DNA of 64,000 nt from Stappia sp. WLB 29 (GTDB lineage: Bacteria; Pseudomonadota; Alphaproteobacteria; Rhizobiales; Stappiaceae): positions 62,001 through 126,000 of the forward strand of contig NZ_JALBGD010000008.1 in NCBI RefSeq assembly GCF_023507705.1, in the 5' to 3' direction. The notes under the pieces were generated by a model. It did not search any database. It saw only the letters and a program-made list of their open reading frames with translations, and was not told the origin of the DNA. Numbering within the stretch: position 1 is the first letter of the stretch; each line of letters starts with the position of its first letter. The position numbers and the translations under genes are program-made. Below are positions 27,293 to 36,660 of this stretch, in pieces.

Positions 27293-28126
27293 ATGGCTAT
27301 GACCTTCCGCCCCCTTGCGCTCGCCGTTGCGACCCTGCTCACCGTGGCCGGCCAGCCGGCTTTCGCCAGCGAGCCCGTCGGCGTCGCCAGTGCCGTCAAC
27401 CAGAGCGCCCAGAGCCAGCGCGGCGGGGCGGGTATGCGCACCATCCGTATCGGCTCCGACTTCGTAAACCGGGAGAAGATCGAGACCGGCGCCTCGGGCC
27501 TGGTACAGGTCCTGCTTGCCGACGGGTCCAACTTTGTGGTCGGACCCAATTCCAGCCTGGTCATCGACGAGTTCGTCTATTCGCCGTCCGCCGGCACGGG
27601 GCGCATCGTCGCCACCTTCGGCAGGGGCGTTGCCCGCTATGTCGGCGGCCGCATCTCCAAGCAGCGCGGCGGCGTCACCATCAACACCCGCCAGGGCACC
27701 ATCGGCGTGCGCGGCGGCATGGCCAACCTCGTCGACCGCGACGGCGAGACGGTGTTCTCCTTCCTCTATGGCAAGGACCTGACCTTTACCGGCAGCAACG
27801 GCAAGACGACCCGGGTCTACCGGCCGGGCTTCTCGATCTTCGCCAATGGCGGGCAGGGTGCCTCCCAGCGCACGCCCGCCGCGGTCGTTGCCGCCGTGAA
27901 CCGCATCCTGAAGGGCAACCGTCCGTCCGGCAGCCGTCCGACCGCCAGCCAGATCGCCCGCTTCTCCACGTTCAACTCCGCGCTGCCGCCCAAGTTCGAG
28001 GCGCAGTATCCGGCGCCGGTGCTGAACAGCGGGCCGACGGGGCCGGACCCGCGCGATGTCAATCACGCCAACTCCGTCTACATCAGGTCGAACGCCAACA
28101 CCTATTGCGGCAACTACTGCAACTGA
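27293..28126 (+). CDS. Secreted FecR-domain protein
   Basis: A 277-aa exported protein. Signal peptide cleavage is probably after AFA near residue 23. The FecR domain covers about residues 30-150 (GSDFVNREKIETGASG, VQVLLADGSNFVVGPNSSLVIDEF read as two parts, VGGRISKQRGGVTINTRQGTIGVRG). It is not the sigma-regulator type: there is no anti-sigma N-terminal domain or membrane helix, and no sigma gene is nearby. Residues 150-260 are basic and low in complexity, and the C-terminus ends CGNYCN with two cysteines. ATG 27293 follows AGGAG by 7 nt. Its FecR part is clearly paralogous to residues 25-150 of the 939-aa protein at 31582. It is probably periplasmic or surface-exposed, of unknown function. 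Confidence 0.82.
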   Translation: MAMTFRPLALAVATLLTVAGQPAFASEPVGVASAVNQSAQSQRGGAGMRTIRIGSDFVNREKIETGASGLVQVLLADGSNFVVGPNSSLVIDEFVYSPSAGTGRIVATFGRGVARYVGGRISKQRGGVTINTRQGTIGVRGGMANLVDRDGETVFSFLYGKDLTFTGSNGKTTRVYRPGFSIFANGGQGASQRTPAAVVAAVNRILKGNRPSGSRPTASQIARFSTFNSALPPKFEAQYPAPVLNSGPTGPDPRDVNHANSVYIRSNANTYCGNYCN

Positions 28127-28321
28127 AATCCTGCGATCTTGCGTGGATGAGCGGCAGGCCGCCGTTGCCGTGCTGCGGGAACGGTTGATCTGCCCCCGGC
28201 AAGCTGGCAGTCTCGCAATCGCGAATAGGGGGCAGAGGGCGTGAACGCCTTCCTCTTGTCGGCAGCCTGGGCAGTCGCCGCATCGACGGTGCGCGGCCCC
28301 ATCCTACGGGGAGTGGACAGT

Positions 28322-29959
28322 ATGCGGGTTGCTTCTTTCGGCGCGGCCATGCTGGCCGCCGCGGGCGGCATGGTGCTGTCGGCATCCCTGGCGGTCGCCC
28401 CGGCCCAGGCCGATTACGCCCTGACGATCCTCCACATCAACGACCTGCATTCGCGCCTCGAGCCCATCAACAAGTACGATTCCACTTGCAGCGCCAAGGA
28501 CGATACCGAAGGCAAGTGCTTCGGCGGCATCGCCCGCGTAAAGAGCAAGATCGACGAGCGCCGCGCGGCCCTTTCCGCCGCCGGCCGCAACGTGCTGACG
28601 CTCGATGCCGGCGACCAGTTCCAGGGCTCGCTCTTCTACACGACCTATAAGGGCGCCGCCGCTGCCGAGTTCATGAACATGATCGGCTTCGACGCGATGG
28701 CCGTCGGCAATCACGAATTCGACGACGGACCGGCTGGCCTCGCCGGCTTCCTCGACAAGGTCGATACCAAGGTCCTGTCCGGCAATATCGAGGTGGAGAA
28801 CGAGCCGACGCTGAAGGGCCGGGTGCCCGGAACGCTGGTGCTCGAGATCGGTGGACAGAAGGTCGGCATCGTCTCGGTTCTGGCCGAGGATACGGTCGAG
28901 ACCTCCTCGCCCGGACCCAACGTGTTCTTCCAGCGCGCCGAGACCTATCTGAAAGGCGCGGTCGAGGGACTGCAGGCAGCCGGCGTCGACAAGATCGTCG
29001 CGCTGACCCATATGGGCCTGCCGCGCGACATGGAGATCGCGACGCGCGTGCCCGGCATCGACGTCATCGTCGGCGGCCACTCGCACACGCTCCTGTCCAA
29101 CACCCACGAAGGGGCCGCCGGTCCCTATCCGGTGCTGGTGCAGAACCCGGCCGGCCGTCAGGTGCCCATCGTCCAGGCCTATGCCTATGGCAAGTTCCTC
29201 GGCGAGATCGAGATCGTCTTCGACGATGCCGGCAAGGTCGTCTCGGCGACCGGCAATCCGATCCTGCTCGATGCCTCGGTGCCGGCGGACAAGACGGTGG
29301 CCGCCCGCCTTGCCGAGCTTGCCGCACCGCTCGAGGAACTGCGCGCCAAGGTCATCGGCAGCACCAGCGAGACCATCGACGGCTCGCGCGACACCTGCCG
29401 CGCCGGCGAGTGCGCCATGGGCACCCTCATCGCCGATGCCATGCTGGAGCGCACGCGCGGGCAGGGCGTGCAGATCGCCATCCAGAACGGCGGCGGCATT
29501 CGCGCCTCCATCGATGCCGGAGAGGTGACTATGGGCGAGGTGCTGACGGTGCTGCCGTTCCAGAACACGCTCGCCACTTTCCAGCTCAAGGGCCGCGATA
29601 TCGTCGCCGCGCTGGAAAACGGCGTCTCGCAGGTGGAGGAGGGGGCCGGCCGCTTCCCGCAGGTCGCCGGCATGCGCTTCACCTGGACCCGCACGCGCAA
29701 GCCGGGCGACGGTCGCATCATACAGGTCGAGGTCGAGGAGGAGAACGGCTGGCAGCCGCTCGACATGGACAAGACCTACGTGGTCGCCACCAACAACTAC
29801 ATGCGTGGCGGCGGCGACGGCTACAAGATCTTCTCCGAGGCCGGCACCAATGCCTACGATTACGGTCCGGGTCTGGAGACGGTTCTGGCCGACTACATCG
29901 CCGCGCGCCCCGACGGCTACAAGCCCTATACCGACGGCCGGGTGCGCGAGGTCAAGTGA
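28322..29959 (+). CDS. Periplasmic bifunctional metallophosphatase/5'-nucleotidase (UshA/CpdB family)
   Basis: A 545-aa exported enzyme. Signal peptide 1-30 ends AQA. The calcineurin-like metal motifs follow in order: HINDLHS (38-44), DAGDQFQGS, GNHEFDDG and GGHSHT. The C-terminal nucleotide-binding domain has NGGGIRASI, and NNYMRGGGDGY near the end carries the stacking aromatics. It would dephosphorylate extracellular nucleotides in the periplasm for phosphate or nucleoside scavenging. ATG 28322 with GGGGAG 8 nt upstream is chosen over the frame opening at 28241. It stands between the FecR gene and the Slam-like gene on the same strand. Confidence 0.92.
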   Translation: MRVASFGAAMLAAAGGMVLSASLAVAPAQADYALTILHINDLHSRLEPINKYDSTCSAKDDTEGKCFGGIARVKSKIDERRAALSAAGRNVLTLDAGDQFQGSLFYTTYKGAAAAEFMNMIGFDAMAVGNHEFDDGPAGLAGFLDKVDTKVLSGNIEVENEPTLKGRVPGTLVLEIGGQKVGIVSVLAEDTVETSSPGPNVFFQRAETYLKGAVEGLQAAGVDKIVALTHMGLPRDMEIATRVPGIDVIVGGHSHTLLSNTHEGAAGPYPVLVQNPAGRQVPIVQAYAYGKFLGEIEIVFDDAGKVVSATGNPILLDASVPADKTVAARLAELAAPLEELRAKVIGSTSETIDGSRDTCRAGECAMGTLIADAMLERTRGQGVQIAIQNGGGIRASIDAGEVTMGEVLTVLPFQNTLATFQLKGRDIVAALENGVSQVEEGAGRFPQVAGMRFTWTRTRKPGDGRIIQVEVEEENGWQPLDMDKTYVVATNNYMRGGGDGYKIFSEAGTNAYDYGPGLETVLADYIAARPDGYKPYTDGRVREVK

Positions 29960-30129: not shown

Positions 30130-31533
30130 GTGAACGTGGCGGTGGTTGCCCGGCGTGGGGTTCTGCGTATTGCTGGAGTTGCTGCTGCCGGACTGCTCGC
30201 TGTCGCCGGCGCGGCGCAGGCACAGAACGTCGCACCTCAGGCCCAGAGTCAGTCCGTGCTCGCCGGGGCGCCCCTGTCTCAGGAGCAATTGCGCGCCCGC
30301 CAGACCGAGCTTCTGGCTGCGATGATGCGCGATCCCGCCAATCTCGACATCGCCTTCGAATACGCCACCCTGTCGGCCCGCATGGGCGACTACGAGGCGG
30401 CCATCGGCACCTTCGAGCGCATGCTGATCTACGCGCCGGGTCTGCCGCGCATCCAGCTCGAGCTCGGCGTCCTCTACTTCCGCCTCGGCTCCTTCGATGC
30501 CGCGCGCTCCTATTTCGAGCAGGCCCTGCAGGCGCCGAACGTGCCGCCGGAAGTGACCGAGCGCGTCCAGACCTTCATGACCGCCATCGAAACGGCCGAG
30601 GACCCGACCAAGTTCTCGGCAACGCTCATGACCGGCCTGCGCTGGCAGTCCAATGCCAATGCCGGTCCCGGCGGTCGGCAGGTCACGCTGAACGGCGTCA
30701 CCTTCCTCCTGGACGATACCGCCATCGGCCGCGCCGACTGGAACGCTTTCGTCGCCGGCAACGTGCATGCGGCCTATGATCTCGGCACCCAGGGCGATCT
30801 GCTGGAGGCGGACCTGCTGTTCTACGGCGGGCGCTATTTCGACAGCACACGGCTCAATACCGAGCTGGCGGAGCTGACTTTCGGTCCCTCGTTCAACCTG
30901 GCCCGCTTCGACATCGACAATGCCCGCCTCGGCCTTTACGGCATCCTGACCGGCGTGCGGCTCGACAATTCCAACTATTCCGGCGCGACCGGCTTCGGCG
31001 CCCGCTTCGGCATCCAGCCGAGCCCGCTGTCGAGCGTCAACGCCAAGATCGAGTACCGCTATCGCTGGTACCGCGACAGCCGCACCTATCCGACCGTCAG
31101 CGACCGCAACGGCTACCAGATCCTCGCGCAGCTGACCAACAGCTACCAGTTTTCCTCTGCCTGGTCGGGCCGCGTCGCGCTGCTCGGCGACTACGAGCAT
31201 GCCTCCGTGCGCTACGAGCAGAGCTGGGAGGCGGGTCTTTCGGCCGGTCTCACCTATCGCTTCGCCTCGCCGGTGGAGATGCTGCGCACCGTCTGGTCGG
31301 TCGATGCCGATGTCGGCTACATCCGCCGCGAGTTCGACGCGCCGGACCCGGCGATCAGCGCCACCGAAAGCCAGACCGACAACGAGCTGTGGGTGCGCGG
31401 CGCGCTGAACGTGCCGTTCCGCCAGGACATAGCCATGTCGCTGGCGGCCGAATACCGGCGGATGCAATCGAATTACCAGACGCGCGACTATTCCAACACG
31501 TCGCTGACGCTGAGCCTGATCAAGACGTTCTGA
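30130..31533 (+). CDS. Slam-like outer-membrane translocator (TPR plus DUF560-type beta-barrel)
   Basis: A 467-aa outer-membrane protein. A signal peptide (to about residue 32, AQA-Q) leads to TPR-like helical repeats at about 55-150 (FEYATLSARMGDYEAAIGTFERML and LELGVLYFRLGSFDAARSYFEQAL, each given here as one repeat, shortened as ATLSARMGDYEAAIGTFERM and YFRLGSFDAARSYFEQAL). Then comes a barrel of alternating strands ending in the aromatic C-terminal signature LTLSLIKTF. This architecture is that of Slam proteins (surface lipoprotein assembly modulator, type XI secretion), which move TbpB-barrel-bearing cargo across the outer membrane. It starts with GTG after GGAGGGGG; GTG 30136 is an alternative. 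The next gene encodes a protein with such a barrel. Confidence 0.8.
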   Translation: MNVAVVARRGVLRIAGVAAAGLLAVAGAAQAQNVAPQAQSQSVLAGAPLSQEQLRARQTELLAAMMRDPANLDIAFEYATLSARMGDYEAAIGTFERMLIYAPGLPRIQLELGVLYFRLGSFDAARSYFEQALQAPNVPPEVTERVQTFMTAIETAEDPTKFSATLMTGLRWQSNANAGPGGRQVTLNGVTFLLDDTAIGRADWNAFVAGNVHAAYDLGTQGDLLEADLLFYGGRYFDSTRLNTELAELTFGPSFNLARFDIDNARLGLYGILTGVRLDNSNYSGATGFGARFGIQPSPLSSVNAKIEYRYRWYRDSRTYPTVSDRNGYQILAQLTNSYQFSSAWSGRVALLGDYEHASVRYEQSWEAGLSAGLTYRFASPVEMLRTVWSVDADVGYIRREFDAPDPAISATESQTDNELWVRGALNVPFRQDIAMSLAAEYRRMQSNYQTRDYSNTSLTLSLIKTF

Positions 31534-31581
31534 CATCGCCTGATACTCGACATTACACGCGCCGTTCCGAAGGGGGCTGAA

Positions 31582-34401
31582 ATGCGCAGGCAATATGTGA
31601 TGGCGGCTCTCGGTGCCGCCCTTGTCATGGTGCCGGGGGCCGCGACGGCCCGAAGCGACGTCGGCGTTGCCGCCGCCGTGAACCAGGATGCCCTGCGCAC
31701 GCCGCCGGGCGCGCCCACCCGCACCGTCGTGCTCGGCGACAACCTGATCTTTCGCGAGCGGATCGAGACGGCTGGCGAGGGGCTGGTGCAGATCCTGCTG
31801 GTCGACGGTTCCACCTTCACCGTCGGCGCCAATTCCGATCTGGTCATCGACGAATTCGTCTACGATCCCGATGCGGGCACCGGCAGGCTCGTCGCCACGC
31901 TCGGCAAGGGCGTTGCCCGCTTCGTCGGCGGCCGGCTCAGCAAGAATGCCGGCGGGGTGACGGTCAAGACGCCGGTCGGCACCATCGGCATTCGCGGCGG
32001 CATCGCCAATCTCAACCTGCTGGACGGCGGCGCGCGCTTCTCGCTGCTGTTCGGCGACGAGTTGAGCTTCACCGGCCTCAACGGCGAGAGCCGGCGCATC
32101 TACGAGCGCGGCTACACGCTGGCCATCGCCTCGGCGCAGGCGGGCAACTACCGGCCGGAAATCCGCCGCACCAACCAGGCCGACATCGCCGGCGTGCAGC
32201 AGGGGCTGGCCGGGCGCAGCGGCCAGACCGGCGGCATCTCCGCTCCGCCGACCGACACCCAGGTCCGCAATTCCGGGCTCGGTCAGACCAATTCCGGTCG
32301 GCCGGTCGTCGCCGTTCTGCCGCGCCCGCGCCCGGAGGTCGTCCAGTCCACCCGCATCACGGAAGGCGGCCAGGTCGTCAACGAGATCAATCACGGCGCC
32401 ACCGGCGATATCATCCGCGAGGTGGTCGGCGATCCGCCGCCGCCGGTCGATGGGGGCGAGGTGGTGATGCGCGTGCTCACCGCCGCCGCGTCCTACGATC
32501 CGGCCTTCGAGACCTTCACCGTCACCGATCCCGGCCGCCAGGGCCTCATCGGCGGCACCCCGGGCAGCGACATCACCGCCACCTTCACCGTGACCGGCGG
32601 CGGCACCCAGCTCACCGGCACGATCGGCGGCGAGACCATCACCATCCCGCTGCCGACGGGCGGGGAGGCAGCGTTCCGCGTCGTCACTTCCGGCGGACGC
32701 ACGGTTGCCGGCTCCGTCTATCGCAACGGCGACCATTTCCTCGCCTTCACCTATTTCGAGGAGATCACCGCGCCGCTGCTCATCCCTTCCGAGGTTCCGG
32801 GCGATATCGGCGGGCCGCTCGTCGTCAACGAGCCGACCTTCGGCTTCTGGGGCGTGCGCACCGACCCCGATGCGCTTCGTGTCGCCGGCGCCAACCAGAT
32901 CCGCCGCTATCACCTGTCGTCCGATCCGGTGCATGTCGCCCGCACCGGCATCGGCCATGACCTGTATTTCCTCAATCCGCTGGCCGGCGAGATGCTCGGC
33001 TCGTATTTCCTGCAGAACGTGCGCACCAGCGATCTTCTGACGGTGACGGGACCGAACCTTACCGAGAACGACACGCGATTCCTGGTCGCCTCCATGCTGA
33101 TCCAGGGGCAGGGCGCCAACCAGGCCTCGGCGATCTCCGTCTCGGCGGGCCGGATCTACGAGGACGAGGAGGACGGGCTCGTCGTCGGCGGGCCTCGGCG
33201 CGGCGGCTTCCGCGTGTCCGGCTACGACCCTTCCGTGCTCTATGCCGGTCCCGTCTCCTCCGTTCCGGGGGGCGATGGCAGCCATGTGTTCGGCCCGAAC
33301 GGCGAGAATTTCGTTCTCGGTTTCGGCGTCGGCGACCTCGACACCGGCAACGACAGTTCCGCGCGCCTGCCGCTTCCCTACGAATCCGTCACCGACACGG
33401 TCTCCGGCTACATGCATGTGGCGCAGGTTGCGTCGATCTCTCCGGTCGGCGAGTTCACCCGCACGAGCCGGCTCCTCAACGGCTATGCCTCCGGAATGGT
33501 CGAGGTCGGATCGAATGGCGGCGCTGCCGTGCCGTTCTGGTCGCTGACGCCCGAGATGCTGACCATCGGCTTCGACGCGGTCAACAATTCGGTCGGCGCC
33601 AGCATGACCGTGCTCGACACCTTCGAGGCGGACGATCACCTGGCCGCGCTGGTGCTGGGCTTCGGCGACAGCCTGTTCACCACCGGCCCGAACGGCCAGT
33701 CGGCGCTGATCGACGACGACCGCTATGCCCTGACCTACAATTTCGGCGAGACCTTCGCGGTCACCGACGAGGGATCGATCATTGCCCCCGACAGCAATCC
33801 GCGCAGCTACATGGTGCCTTCGACCCTGGTCGCCGGCGCGGACAACGACCTGTTCACGGACGTTGCGCGCTGCACCTGCGCTTTCCTGGAATGGGGGTAT
33901 TGGGGCACGCGCTTCCGGGGCGAGGACGTGTCGGAGACGGCGCCGTTCGACCCGCGTCGGCGCGACTTTGTGCATCTGGGCACTTGGGCGGCCGGCGATG
34001 TGTCGACCTTCGGCGAGTTGCCGACCGTCGGCTCGGCCTCCTATGCCGGCCATGCGGTCGGCAATGTGGCGCGCACCACGACCGACGGTCCGGTGCAGTA
34101 TCTCGCCGCCGGCAATTTCAACATGACCTACGATTTCGGCGCGCGCAGCGGCACGGCCAGCATCACCAATTTCGACGGATACAATTTCGGCGGATCGGTG
34201 CTCGGCCCGTCGGGCAACCCGGAGGGGCTGAACCATTTCATCGGAGGTCTGGGCAATCCCGAGGAGACCCTGTCGGGCGTTCTGACCGGTTCCTTCGTGC
34301 GCGGCCCCGGCGGGCCGGCGCAGGGCGTCGTCGGCAGCTTCGGCGTGTCCGATCCCAGCGGCTCCTACACCGCGACCGGCGTGGTCGTCGGCCAGCAGTA
34401 G
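31582..34401 (+). CDS. Large exported protein: FecR domain plus C-terminal TbpB-like beta-barrel, probable Slam cargo
   Basis: A 939-aa protein with signal peptide (MRRQYVMAALGAALVMVPGA, cleaved near ATA) and no lipobox cysteine, so it is predicted non-lipidated. Residues 25-150 are a FecR domain closely similar to the small protein at 27293 (shared LVIDEFVY, GTGRLVATLGKGVAR and VGTIGIRGG). Residues 200-300 form a Pro/Thr-rich linker. A long beta-rich middle (300-790) follows, with one CTC cysteine pair. The last 125 residues read as a TbpB-type small barrel: GSASYAGHAVGNV, GNFNMTYDFGARSGTASI, FGGSV, LSGVLTGSFVRG and VVGSFGVSD. This barrel is the recognition module of Slam cargo. The gene follows the Slam-like gene by 48 nt. 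Function beyond secretion is unknown. Confidence 0.82.
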   Translation: MRRQYVMAALGAALVMVPGAATARSDVGVAAAVNQDALRTPPGAPTRTVVLGDNLIFRERIETAGEGLVQILLVDGSTFTVGANSDLVIDEFVYDPDAGTGRLVATLGKGVARFVGGRLSKNAGGVTVKTPVGTIGIRGGIANLNLLDGGARFSLLFGDELSFTGLNGESRRIYERGYTLAIASAQAGNYRPEIRRTNQADIAGVQQGLAGRSGQTGGISAPPTDTQVRNSGLGQTNSGRPVVAVLPRPRPEVVQSTRITEGGQVVNEINHGATGDIIREVVGDPPPPVDGGEVVMRVLTAAASYDPAFETFTVTDPGRQGLIGGTPGSDITATFTVTGGGTQLTGTIGGETITIPLPTGGEAAFRVVTSGGRTVAGSVYRNGDHFLAFTYFEEITAPLLIPSEVPGDIGGPLVVNEPTFGFWGVRTDPDALRVAGANQIRRYHLSSDPVHVARTGIGHDLYFLNPLAGEMLGSYFLQNVRTSDLLTVTGPNLTENDTRFLVASMLIQGQGANQASAISVSAGRIYEDEEDGLVVGGPRRGGFRVSGYDPSVLYAGPVSSVPGGDGSHVFGPNGENFVLGFGVGDLDTGNDSSARLPLPYESVTDTVSGYMHVAQVASISPVGEFTRTSRLLNGYASGMVEVGSNGGAAVPFWSLTPEMLTIGFDAVNNSVGASMTVLDTFEADDHLAALVLGFGDSLFTTGPNGQSALIDDDRYALTYNFGETFAVTDEGSIIAPDSNPRSYMVPSTLVAGADNDLFTDVARCTCAFLEWGYWGTRFRGEDVSETAPFDPRRRDFVHLGTWAAGDVSTFGELPTVGSASYAGHAVGNVARTTTDGPVQYLAAGNFNMTYDFGARSGTASITNFDGYNFGGSVLGPSGNPEGLNHFIGGLGNPEETLSGVLTGSFVRGPGGPAQGVVGSFGVSDPSGSYTATGVVVGQQ

Positions 34402-34583: not shown

Positions 34584-34659
34584 GCCCAGGTAGCTCAGTT
34601 GGTAGAGCAGCGGATTGAAAATCCGCGTGTCGCTGGTTCGATTCCGGCCCTGGGCACCA
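34584..34659 (+). tRNA. tRNA-Phe (anticodon GAA)
   Basis: A complete 76-nt cloverleaf with encoded CCA. Acceptor GCCCAGG pairs with CCTGGGC, the D arm is GCTC/GAGC, the anticodon arm is GCGGA-TTGAAAA-TCCGC with GAA at positions 34-36, the variable loop is GTGTC and the T arm is GCTGG-TTCGATT-CCGGC. The 3' end is repeated at 36661, marking an integration site. Confidence 0.98.
34646..34659 (+). repeat. attL-like repeat (tRNA-Phe 3' end)
   Basis: GGCCCTGGGCACCA, the last 14 nt of tRNA-Phe, recurs as an exact direct repeat at 36661-36674. Integrases of the tyrosine family commonly recombine at such tRNA 3' ends and leave the tRNA intact. Confidence 0.75.
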
Positions 34660-36660
34660 TTCATTTTTAAGTTGAATTTGACCATAAAGTTATCCAGAGG
34701 ATCAATAGATTATTATTTCGCGCTCCCAAAAAAATCGGAGCAGTGGAGAAATTGATGGTATTTTCCACGGTACATTGGGAGGTATCCTCACCGATACCGT
34801 CAAGATCCGCCGAAAACGCTTTAAATCGACTACTTGATTTCATTTAATAACTTAAAAAATGAAATGCTGGTGGATCGATCCTCATATGCGGAGCCGCAAT
34901 GGTAGGTTGGTAATTGACGTCTATCTATCCATCGTGCTTCGGCGTCCTCGGAGCAGGATGATAGTTAGGTTCTGACCCTGCCGACGACAGGCCAGCCACA
35001 ATGTCATGTTGCGGTGTTGGTAAATTCCCTCCAAATTGTCACCAGGCTACCGGGAGGGGGAGCAAAATGACTACGTTTTCCAATCCATTATTGTTCTCGC
35101 AGCACTTCAAAATCGATCCCAAAAACTTGGCTGATGCGGGTCTAATCGATCCATTCCTAACCGTGGACACGCAGTTATTTGTTGATCCGATTCTCTTGGG
35201 TAAATCGGAACACAGGCTCATTCGCGAAGATGGCTATCGAAGCTTCTGCGCTCATTTTCAACGGGTCATCCGGTTGCTTGCTATGTGCAAGCGAGAAGGA
35301 GATCCTGCTTGGAAGGCTGCGCAGCAACAGATGAGCTTGCGTGAGGCCCCCGCAAATGGTCTTGGCTATGGGACCAGCGATAGGCCGGGGAATTCGCGAC
35401 CTAATGAATTGCGTGACGTGATACTCCGCACTGCAAAGGAGATCGTGGAGCTTGGGACACAAGATCCCGAAATGATTTCGCTTATGGGCTTTTTTGAGGA
35501 AAACGTTGGGCCTGACACGATCAGCGATCTCACATCTCGTGTCATCCAGCCACAACTTGCTAGGCTAACAAACGAGTTCTGTGATCCGCTGGGCATCCCT
35601 TTGAAGGTTTCGGACGCAACACCGGACATTGCTCTGCCGCACTACACCAACGCCGGCGGAAAAGAACGGGCGCTTGTACTCGTTCCCTCGGACATTGTTC
35701 GGGAACTCCCCGTCGCGAGAAGCTGGGACGATATCGAAGCAGCTATTGATGCCAATGCCTTAATTCGCCAGCGCGTGAACGCGCTCCTTGCAAGCATCGC
35801 TCAACCAACAGTAGCGGATCGGAAGGAAGCACTTCGCAGTGCAGCCATGCAATCGAAGGATGTCTTTGAGGCTTTCATTGCCGCGGTTAAAGAGAGTGCA
35901 ACCTATTACGACCCCAATATTGACGCGCTCGGGTATTATCGAATCAAAGAAATACTCCAAGGTGACTTGAATCTCTTCAGGAGCGATCAGAAATATGACG
36001 TATCAAAAGGAGTTAATGAAATTAAGAAGGTCGTTTTGGATACAATTGAACGGTTTGCTCATCATATTGAGAAGGGGAATTTATGGGAGGCCCTTTGGAT
36101 TGGCGATAAACCGAAGAAAGAAAGAGCCGCTCAGCTTATATATTTTGCGATGTCAGACTGCTTTTGTGAAGCGAACGACATCGACATATCACCAGAAGCA
36201 AACATGGGTGGCGGACCTATCGATTTCAAATACTCCAAGGGATACCACGCCCGGGTCCTAGTCGAGATGAAGCGCTCAATGGGCCAAGTAGTTCATGGCT
36301 ACAATCGTCAGCTCGAAATCTATAAGAATGCTTCAGGCACCGATCATGGGTTTTTCGTGATTCTTGACTACGGTGGCTTGGGGAACAAGTTGGAAAATAT
36401 TCAACAGACGAGACGTGAACGTCTCGCCCGGGGTGAGCCTGCATCGGAGATAGTAGTGATAGATGCCAGCAAGAAGGCTTCTGCAAGCAAACGAGAATAG
36501 ATGGAGTATGAACAACAGTGCCTGATTTAGCCACGATAACAGATAGATGCGACAACCAAAATGTAGTTAATTTCAATTTTCTGGTGATTTACAGTGTCGA
36601 TATATCTGACGGCATCTGAACACCAGTGAGAAGGGCAAACATTTAATATCAGTAATATAA
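34660..36660 (+). mobile_element. Small AT-rich genomic island in tRNA-Phe, without integrase
   Basis: The 2.0 kb between the two 14-bp repeats is visibly more AT-rich than the chromosome on either side, with a sharp change right after the tRNA. It contains one large gene (35067-36500). The 407 nt before it (34660-35066) and 160 nt after it hold no gene I can support and no recognisable recombinase. The element is therefore either a remnant of a larger integrative element or a satellite-type cargo that depends on an integrase encoded elsewhere. The boundaries are defined by the repeat only. Confidence 0.7.
35067..36500 (+). CDS. Island protein with PD-(D/E)XK nuclease signature, candidate defence gene
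   Basis: A 477-aa soluble protein with codon use unlike its neighbours. I do not recognise a named family. The N-terminus (FSNPLLFSQHFKIDPKNLAD, then GLIDPFLTVDTQLFVDPILL) is followed by a mainly helical middle. The C-terminal quarter holds a restriction-endonuclease-fold motif: GGGPIDFKYSKGY with Asp386, then VLVEMKRS with Glu400-x-Lys402, and a downstream helix GYNRQLEIYK with Gln415. This order (D, ExK, Q) is what active PD-(D/E)XK nucleases show. ATG 35067 follows GGGAGGGGGAG; the frame to 35001 is not supported. Alone in a tRNA island, it may be a single-gene anti-phage or anti-plasmid system. This is inference. Confidence 0.6.
   Translation: MTTFSNPLLFSQHFKIDPKNLADAGLIDPFLTVDTQLFVDPILLGKSEHRLIREDGYRSFCAHFQRVIRLLAMCKREGDPAWKAAQQQMSLREAPANGLGYGTSDRPGNSRPNELRDVILRTAKEIVELGTQDPEMISLMGFFEENVGPDTISDLTSRVIQPQLARLTNEFCDPLGIPLKVSDATPDIALPHYTNAGGKERALVLVPSDIVRELPVARSWDDIEAAIDANALIRQRVNALLASIAQPTVADRKEALRSAAMQSKDVFEAFIAAVKESATYYDPNIDALGYYRIKEILQGDLNLFRSDQKYDVSKGVNEIKKVVLDTIERFAHHIEKGNLWEALWIGDKPKKERAAQLIYFAMSDCFCEANDIDISPEANMGGGPIDFKYSKGYHARVLVEMKRSMGQVVHGYNRQLEIYKNASGTDHGFFVILDYGGLGNKLENIQQTRRERLARGEPASEIVVIDASKKASASKRE

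Follow-up and report, generated by a model that had tools for sequence, protein, structure and literature searches.

The locus described here lies in a 64,000-nucleotide stretch (the window) of the genome of the marine bacterium Stappia sp. WLB 29. On its plus strand, the genes follow the order FecR-only protein, 5′-nucleotidase family protein, TPR outer-membrane protein (OMP), FecR-barrel protein, and tRNA-Phe (Table 1). The OMP and FecR-barrel genes, which a sequence-only reading had taken for a Type XI secretion pair of translocator and cargo, are ORFs on the same strand separated by 48 bp, with the boundaries assigned in that reading, and the second indeed encodes a 939-residue protein with a signal peptide. 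The pair recurs in relatives at identities from 97% down to about 35%, and thus is not a chance pair of ORFs; the translocator on a Stappia indica contig is 95% identical to that of the window. The genome contains two FecR genes only (E ≤ 0.01), both at this locus, and the FecR parts of their products are about 52% identical. A scan of the locus for promoters and terminators returned nothing above shuffles.

The 5′-nucleotidase family gene is located directly 5′ of the translocator gene in 41 of 45 Stappiaceae loci. Just 3′ of the tRNA-Phe, at 35001 to 36500, there is a 499-residue ORF that has no Pfam match and matches phrog_30194 at 2e-184 and PADLOC PDC-M36A at 1.5e-7; it is a putative phage- or defense-type cargo at the tRNA site.

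Table 1. Genes and protein features of the locus, with positions in the window
Feature	Residues	Position	Strand	Remarks
Second exported FecR protein, FecR-only, without barrel		27293..28126	+	Start set by comparison with G004
5′-nucleotidase family protein, between FecR-only gene and translocator		28322..29959	+	ORF opens at 28241; start chosen
Slam/DUF560-like translocator	467 aa	30130..31533	+	GTG start
Translocator signal peptide	about 1-31
Translocator TPR helices	51-157	30280-30600	+	AF2
Translocator 14-strand barrel	160-467	30607-31530	+	AF2
FecR-TbpB-barrel protein, likely cargo	939 aa	31582..34401	+	No lipobox
Cargo signal peptide	about 1-23
Cargo FecR domain, PF04773	60-158	31759..32055	+	Pfam; AF2 confidence poor
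Cargo linker	207-292	32200..32457	+	Nearly all pLDDT <50
Cargo beta-rich middle	293-763	32458..33870	+	AF2, Foldseek
Cargo conserved C764-x-C766 motif and two strands preceding barrel	764-814	33871..34023	+
Cargo TbpB/fHbp-type C-terminal barrel	815-939	34024..34398	+
tRNA-Phe		34584..34659	+	Fixed landmark downstream

Homology of the translocator to Slam/DUF560 proteins

The AF2 model of the translocator (mean pLDDT 90.5) shows the N-terminal TPR region and C-terminal 14-strand barrel that mark membership in this family: six helices (residues 51 to 157) are followed by 14 long strands (160 to 466), and the last residue is Phe467. Together with Pfam TPR matches around residues 83 to 135, the model agrees with the signal peptide, TPRs and Phe-terminated barrel of the sequence-only reading. 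The remaining Pfam matches were weak generic barrels, and the match to TPR_Slam was subthreshold (E 0.038). The two profiles by which that reading had proposed to recognize the pair failed, with neither SlipAM (PF04575) matching the window translocator nor Pfam TbpB_B_D the window cargo at E ≤ 1.

Of 34 translocator homologs, SlipAM matches eight and TPR_Slam four at E ≤ 0.01. SlipAM scores above the cut-off were obtained in L213 and L234, and in G244 and G329 the protein encoded directly 5′ of a FecR-barrel gene exceeds the cut-off of 22 (24.1 and 35.1 bits, respectively). In hhalign, 29 family rows aligned with 12 SlipAM proteins free of FecR neighbors over 430 columns with a probability of 100 and an E-value, calculated for one comparison, of 1.1e-38; the barrel alone scored 161, compared to 16 for the reversed profile. 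These 12 proteins were used in a repeat of a comparison with 20 SlipAM proteins (score 253, with 23.5 for the reversed profile and no more than 18 in any of 10 column shuffles), a set that had included six members of the FecR-linked branch. At the level of sequence profiles, the translocator is homologous to canonical-side SlipAM proteins over its full length, which bears out its description as Slam-like. Foldseek was also tried as a Slam identifier and rejected, as it does not separate Slam from other porins. The PDB matches listed for the translocator model were generic porins, FadL, PelB and BcsC, with no Slam among them, and fold alone is therefore indecisive.

Domain architecture of the FecR-barrel protein

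The cargo begins, as the sequence-only reading had it, with a FecR domain, which matches PF04773 with 32.7 bits (cut-off 24). With phmmer, residues 45 to 96 also matched 5ix9 weakly (E 0.02), a solved N-terminal region whose annotation reads "Antifreeze protein." At the C terminus, FHBP_C matched residues 812 to 866 with an E-value of 0.0069 and 17.7 bits, below its cut-off of 28.1, and NCBIfam slam_lipo matched residues 801 to 864 at 2.8e-4, again below cut-off. At E ≤ 0.01, Pfam profiles find FecR in all 33 cargo homologs, FHBP_C in 22 and TbpB_B_D in 13.

The AF2 model of the cargo has a mean pLDDT of 75.9; values for residues 293 to 939 are mostly about 80 to 97 (except 397 to 411, at <50), those of the FecR part are about 50 to 68, and those of residues 207 to 288 are nearly all <50. 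Eight strand segments, counted as segments and not by their pairing, are present in the last 125 residues (818 to 938), in line with the eight-stranded fold proposed for this module. Indeed, TbpB, fHbp or NHBA entries make up 34 of the 35 Foldseek matches in the PDB at E ≤ 0.001, with a DUF3598 protein as the exception, and together with the Pfam matches in homologs this upholds a C-terminal barrel of the TbpB type. TM-scores are low because only parts superpose (0.10 to 0.16 when normalized by query; up to 0.70, for NHBA, when normalized by target). With the large rmsd values, this indicates that the PDB match of the cargo is local. The alignments with TbpB extend over as many as 779 columns in Foldseek, suggesting that the middle region is probably lobe/handle-like. 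Profile comparison of the cargo middle with the C-terminal module, examined for an internal barrel duplication, detected no sequence similarity.

The only cysteines of the cargo are residues 764 and 766, and the protein therefore lacks a lipobox, as had been claimed. The lipobox pattern occurs in one of 64 FecR+barrel proteins (a doubtful case), in none of 53 barrel-free FecR proteins and in 10 of 31 FecR-free barrel proteins. A CxC motif ahead of the barrel was found, with a loose pattern, in 64 of 65 FecR+barrel ORFs, and 48 of the 65 have exactly two cysteines after residue 40.

TbpB, fHbp and NHBA are Slam cargo, which for TbpB is supported by PMC12282271. The window pair shares with these systems (T11SS/TXISS, comprising DUF560/Slam proteins with cargo of the TbpB, fHbp, NHBA, HphA and HrpC types) the TPR plus 14-strand OMP ending in Phe, profile homology, the C-terminal TbpB-type barrel of the cargo and adjacent genes. 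Unlike them, the window translocator falls below Pfam recognition, the cargo has a FecR N terminus and is not lipidated, and the branch has constant FecR neighbors, mostly with no barrel detected, and often a nearby CHASE2 cyclase. In Haemophilus parahaemolyticus, a Pls-barrel fusion with TepS likewise joins a foreign functional part to a Slam-type C-terminal barrel (PMC12282271, partial text); the window cargo has FecR and a long TbpB-like region instead of Pls repeats, and whereas secretion of the Pls fusion was shown by experiment, export of the window cargo is predicted from sequence. PF04773 is also shared with the FecI/FecR/FecA sigma regulators. Unlike those, the cargo has no room for a cytoplasmic anti-sigma part, because its signal peptide (residues 1 to 23) directly precedes the FecR domain (from residue 60). 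The remark that a nonlipidated fusion of this kind is not known as characterized stood in part: the word "FecR" is absent from the main text of PMC12282271 and PMC8406197, but DUF560 cargo that is not lipidated has a precedent in principle, since HrpB of Xenorhabdus is said to transport an unlipidated protein (PMC8406197, partial text).

FecR linkage of the translocator branch

Translocator profile A1, which comprises 34 rows, four to five of them from loci already seen with FecR beside the OMP, detected 74 places in 65 of 289 alphaproteobacterial genomes (E ≤ 1e-12). The class-wide sample consisted of 52 of the 54 strongest places, excluding the window itself, one fragment and the 20 weaker places. 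A FecR gene lies within 2 kb at 39 of these 52 loci, in 36 cases downstream and in the same orientation. The other 13 loci have no FecR gene in this range, although several of them come from genomes with FecR-barrel genes elsewhere (for example, G430, G336 and G309). Among the 39 FecR neighbors, two of which are cut by contig ends, the profile finds a barrel in 12, and single-sequence hhalign adds two more (L304, probability 96.7; L290, 92.9); in the uncut remainder no barrel was seen. When the C-terminal tails of 14 profile-negative FecR proteins were compared with the barrel, L290 resembled it, L311 did so weakly (probability 18) and the rest gave noise; five FecR-only tails were also at noise level. 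The constant partner of this translocator branch is FecR proteins, not barrels, and most have no detectable barrel.

Barrel profile A3 matches 29 of the 289 genomes, and the regions around these matches contain 24 ORFs with FecR plus barrel, 12 of them with an adjoining translocator gene. Five other strong matches have no FecR; four run off a contig end and one is a short broken piece. Most of the weak matches, with E-values of about 1e-4 to 1e-9, are to small proteins of known cargo type, some beside SlipAM genes, and A3 also finds proteins adjoining non-FecR SlipAM genes (G316, G189). Phylum-wide, A3 matched eight of 398 genomes at E ≤ 1e-6, window included. A survey for FecR-TbpB fusions beside Slam, as the sequence-only reading had suggested, gave a co-directional upstream translocator for 53 of 65 FecR+barrel ORFs (one locus counted twice); in 51 of these cases the two genes overlap or are no more than 74 bp apart. 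At L117 (6650 to 13657), two FecR-barrel proteins and one FecR-only protein are encoded in a row after one translocator.

The split between canonical and FecR-linked Slam proteins was first drawn from gene neighbors and then by translocator-profile score alone. By A1 score, six of 20 Pfam-SlipAM proteins reach E < 1e-50, five with FecR beside them; the other 14 are weaker than 1e-45 or have no A1 score, and FecR is present in none of the 14 (1.5-kb flanks). A quick tree of 98 translocators (midpoint root, several long branches, no second-class sequences, placement of L103, L147 and L148 unsure) separates 17 FecR-neighbor-free SlipAM proteins (SH-aLRT 97) from 81 others, 66 of which are linked to FecR. 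Profiles and tree thus place the translocator in a branch of the Slam/DUF560 superfamily that is linked to FecR. A1 also matched 34 of 274 genomes from a second class of the phylum (42 places; best E 6.7e-32), and FecR is directly downstream on the same strand in 18 of 30 loci examined (1.5-kb flanks). The SlipAM profile gives these OMPs higher scores than A1 does, indicating that linkage to FecR extends beyond the closest branch. At two second-class loci, L345 and L350, FecR genes flank the Slam-like OMP on both sides.

Closer to the window, A3 was found in 43 of 151 genomes of relatives (the window's included), and FecR lies within 2 kb of the translocator at 39 of 45 Stappiaceae loci. Of the remaining six, five have a FecR-only gene further up and one (G006) is cut by a contig end. 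Nine genomes (G005, G006, G009, G010, G011, G013, G019, G024 and G029) have the translocator without a barrel gene. In all nine, tRNA-Phe directly follows the translocator; at each of 11 scanned loci that do have the cargo, tRNA-Phe comes after the cargo gene. A search of the nine genomes with A3 found no unlinked cargo; TbpB_B_D also found none there, which says little because this model misses the window's own cargo. The FecR-only gene is present in the locus of eight of the nine relatives, the ninth contig being cut before its position. Conversely, the locus of G007 contains the cargo but lacks a FecR-only gene. Thus, either FecR protein can accompany a retained translocator, and since some strains have only the FecR-only protein, that protein probably serves the same translocator as the cargo. 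"Type XI secretion pair" therefore appears a good reading of the window genes that is too narrow for the translocator family, because its FecR proteins are mostly barrel-less and nine relatives keep the translocator without a barrel protein. The C termini of FecR-only proteins often form a two-Cys tail (e.g., YCGNYC), in most Stappia copies and a few distant ones. In G027 (L079), translocator and cargo are both in pieces, which fits joint decay.

Candidate mechanism and alternatives

We consider it reasonably probable that the locus encodes a Slam-type exporter and a co-transcribed, nonlipidated cargo that is recognized by its barrel and whose TbpB-like part reaches the surface. The product of the first gene would be a diverged outer-membrane translocator of the Slam/DUF560 type. 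Its cargo, encoded by the second, co-transcribed gene, would cross the inner membrane through Sec, to judge from the signal peptide. In the periplasm, the translocator would use its TPR part and its barrel to recognize the C-terminal TbpB-type barrel of the cargo, and the TbpB-like part would reach the cell surface. Because the cargo has no lipid anchor, it may be released, or it may stay attached through its N-terminal FecR domain or through the translocator. The FecR domain would act as a contact module on the periplasmic side, a typical feature of a translocator branch whose constant neighbors, by gene linkage, are FecR proteins with or without a barrel. The class-wide translocators with no FecR within 2 kb (13 of 52) and the nine relatives without cargo count against this mechanism, as do the missing SlipAM and TbpB_B_D matches of the window proteins, the merely local PDB match of the cargo and the generic porin matches of the translocator model.

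A possible, though on balance unlikely, alternative is a trans-envelope signaling unit, in which OMP and FecR protein sense a stimulus at the surface and signal via periplasmic FecR to an inner-membrane CHASE2 cyclase; the role of the OMP could be to position the FecR protein across the membrane or simply to hold on to it. Consistent with this, a CHASE2 adenylate/guanylate cyclase (Pfam) is encoded within 6 kb at 23 of the 52 class-wide loci, FecR also being present at 21 of the 23. In Shinella sp. H4-D48 and in Paracoccus aminophilus, plasmid-borne genes for OMP, FecR-barrel protein and CHASE2 cyclase follow in this order on one strand with small gaps. A similar linkage is seen in Campylobacterota, in which genes for CHASE2 cyclase, phosphodiesterase, an outer-membrane protein with a FecR domain and a TPR protein are clustered (PMC9239204), although the partial text of that source describes the TPR protein neither as Slam-like nor with a TbpB barrel. 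In S. meliloti, the FecR protein SMc02177, two loci from the CyaD1 gene number, is needed to control secondary infection, but smc02177 was reported dispensable for plant-signal perception (both PMC5498481, partial text). Also against a signaling unit, no CHASE2 cyclase lies within 6 kb at any of the 45 Stappiaceae translocator loci, and the two CHASE2 genes of the window's genome are on another contig than the translocator locus. Azospirillum thermophilum has OMP and FecR protein with no adjoining cyclase. Citing papers describe NsrA as a receptor in the outer membrane that acts upstream of CHASE2 cyclases and whose barrel comprises residues 600 to 1200; compared by this description, it is therefore no obvious homolog of the translocator. 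The literature covered also includes PMC5192318, PMC7529298 and PMC13001267. At the Shinella locus L328 (13019 to 15245), NHLP bacteriocin export genes directly follow the OMP, FecR and cyclase genes.

That the OMP is a Slam relative mainly exporting or anchoring FecR proteins, with the cargo barrel a dispensable accessory and not the recognition module, we regard as unlikely. The minority of class-wide FecR neighbors with a barrel and the FecR-only proteins of cargo-less Stappiaceae argue for it; on the other side, barrel-dependent recognition is the published rule for T11SS cluster 1 cargo (PMC12282271, partial text), and FecR tails could hold barrels too diverged for the profile. It is highly improbable that a TPR porin of undefined kind, as the direct Pfam matches of the OMP would allow, merely neighbors an unrelated surface protein by chance, because gene linkage is conserved across many families and into the second class and the genome's only two FecR genes are both here.

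No description of a FecR-linked Slam branch was found in the open-access literature, to which the search extended, subscription papers being outside its scope. Current annotations read "FecR domain-containing protein" for the one gene and "hypothetical" or "tetratricopeptide repeat protein" for the other. The locus joins three separately described things, Slam/T11SS export, exported FecR proteins and CHASE2 cAMP signaling, and predicts a cargo class together with a translocator branch that Pfam does not recognize as Slam. It also raises the question of whether Slam relatives can recognize a partner without a TbpB barrel. In a bolder version, which we hold to be distinctly unlikely, the Slam-type OMP would thread the TbpB-like part outward while FecR stays periplasmic, giving a nonlipidated, membrane-spanning sensor that reports to CHASE2 adenylate cyclases. 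If true, Slam would serve here in assembling a receptor instead of releasing a product.
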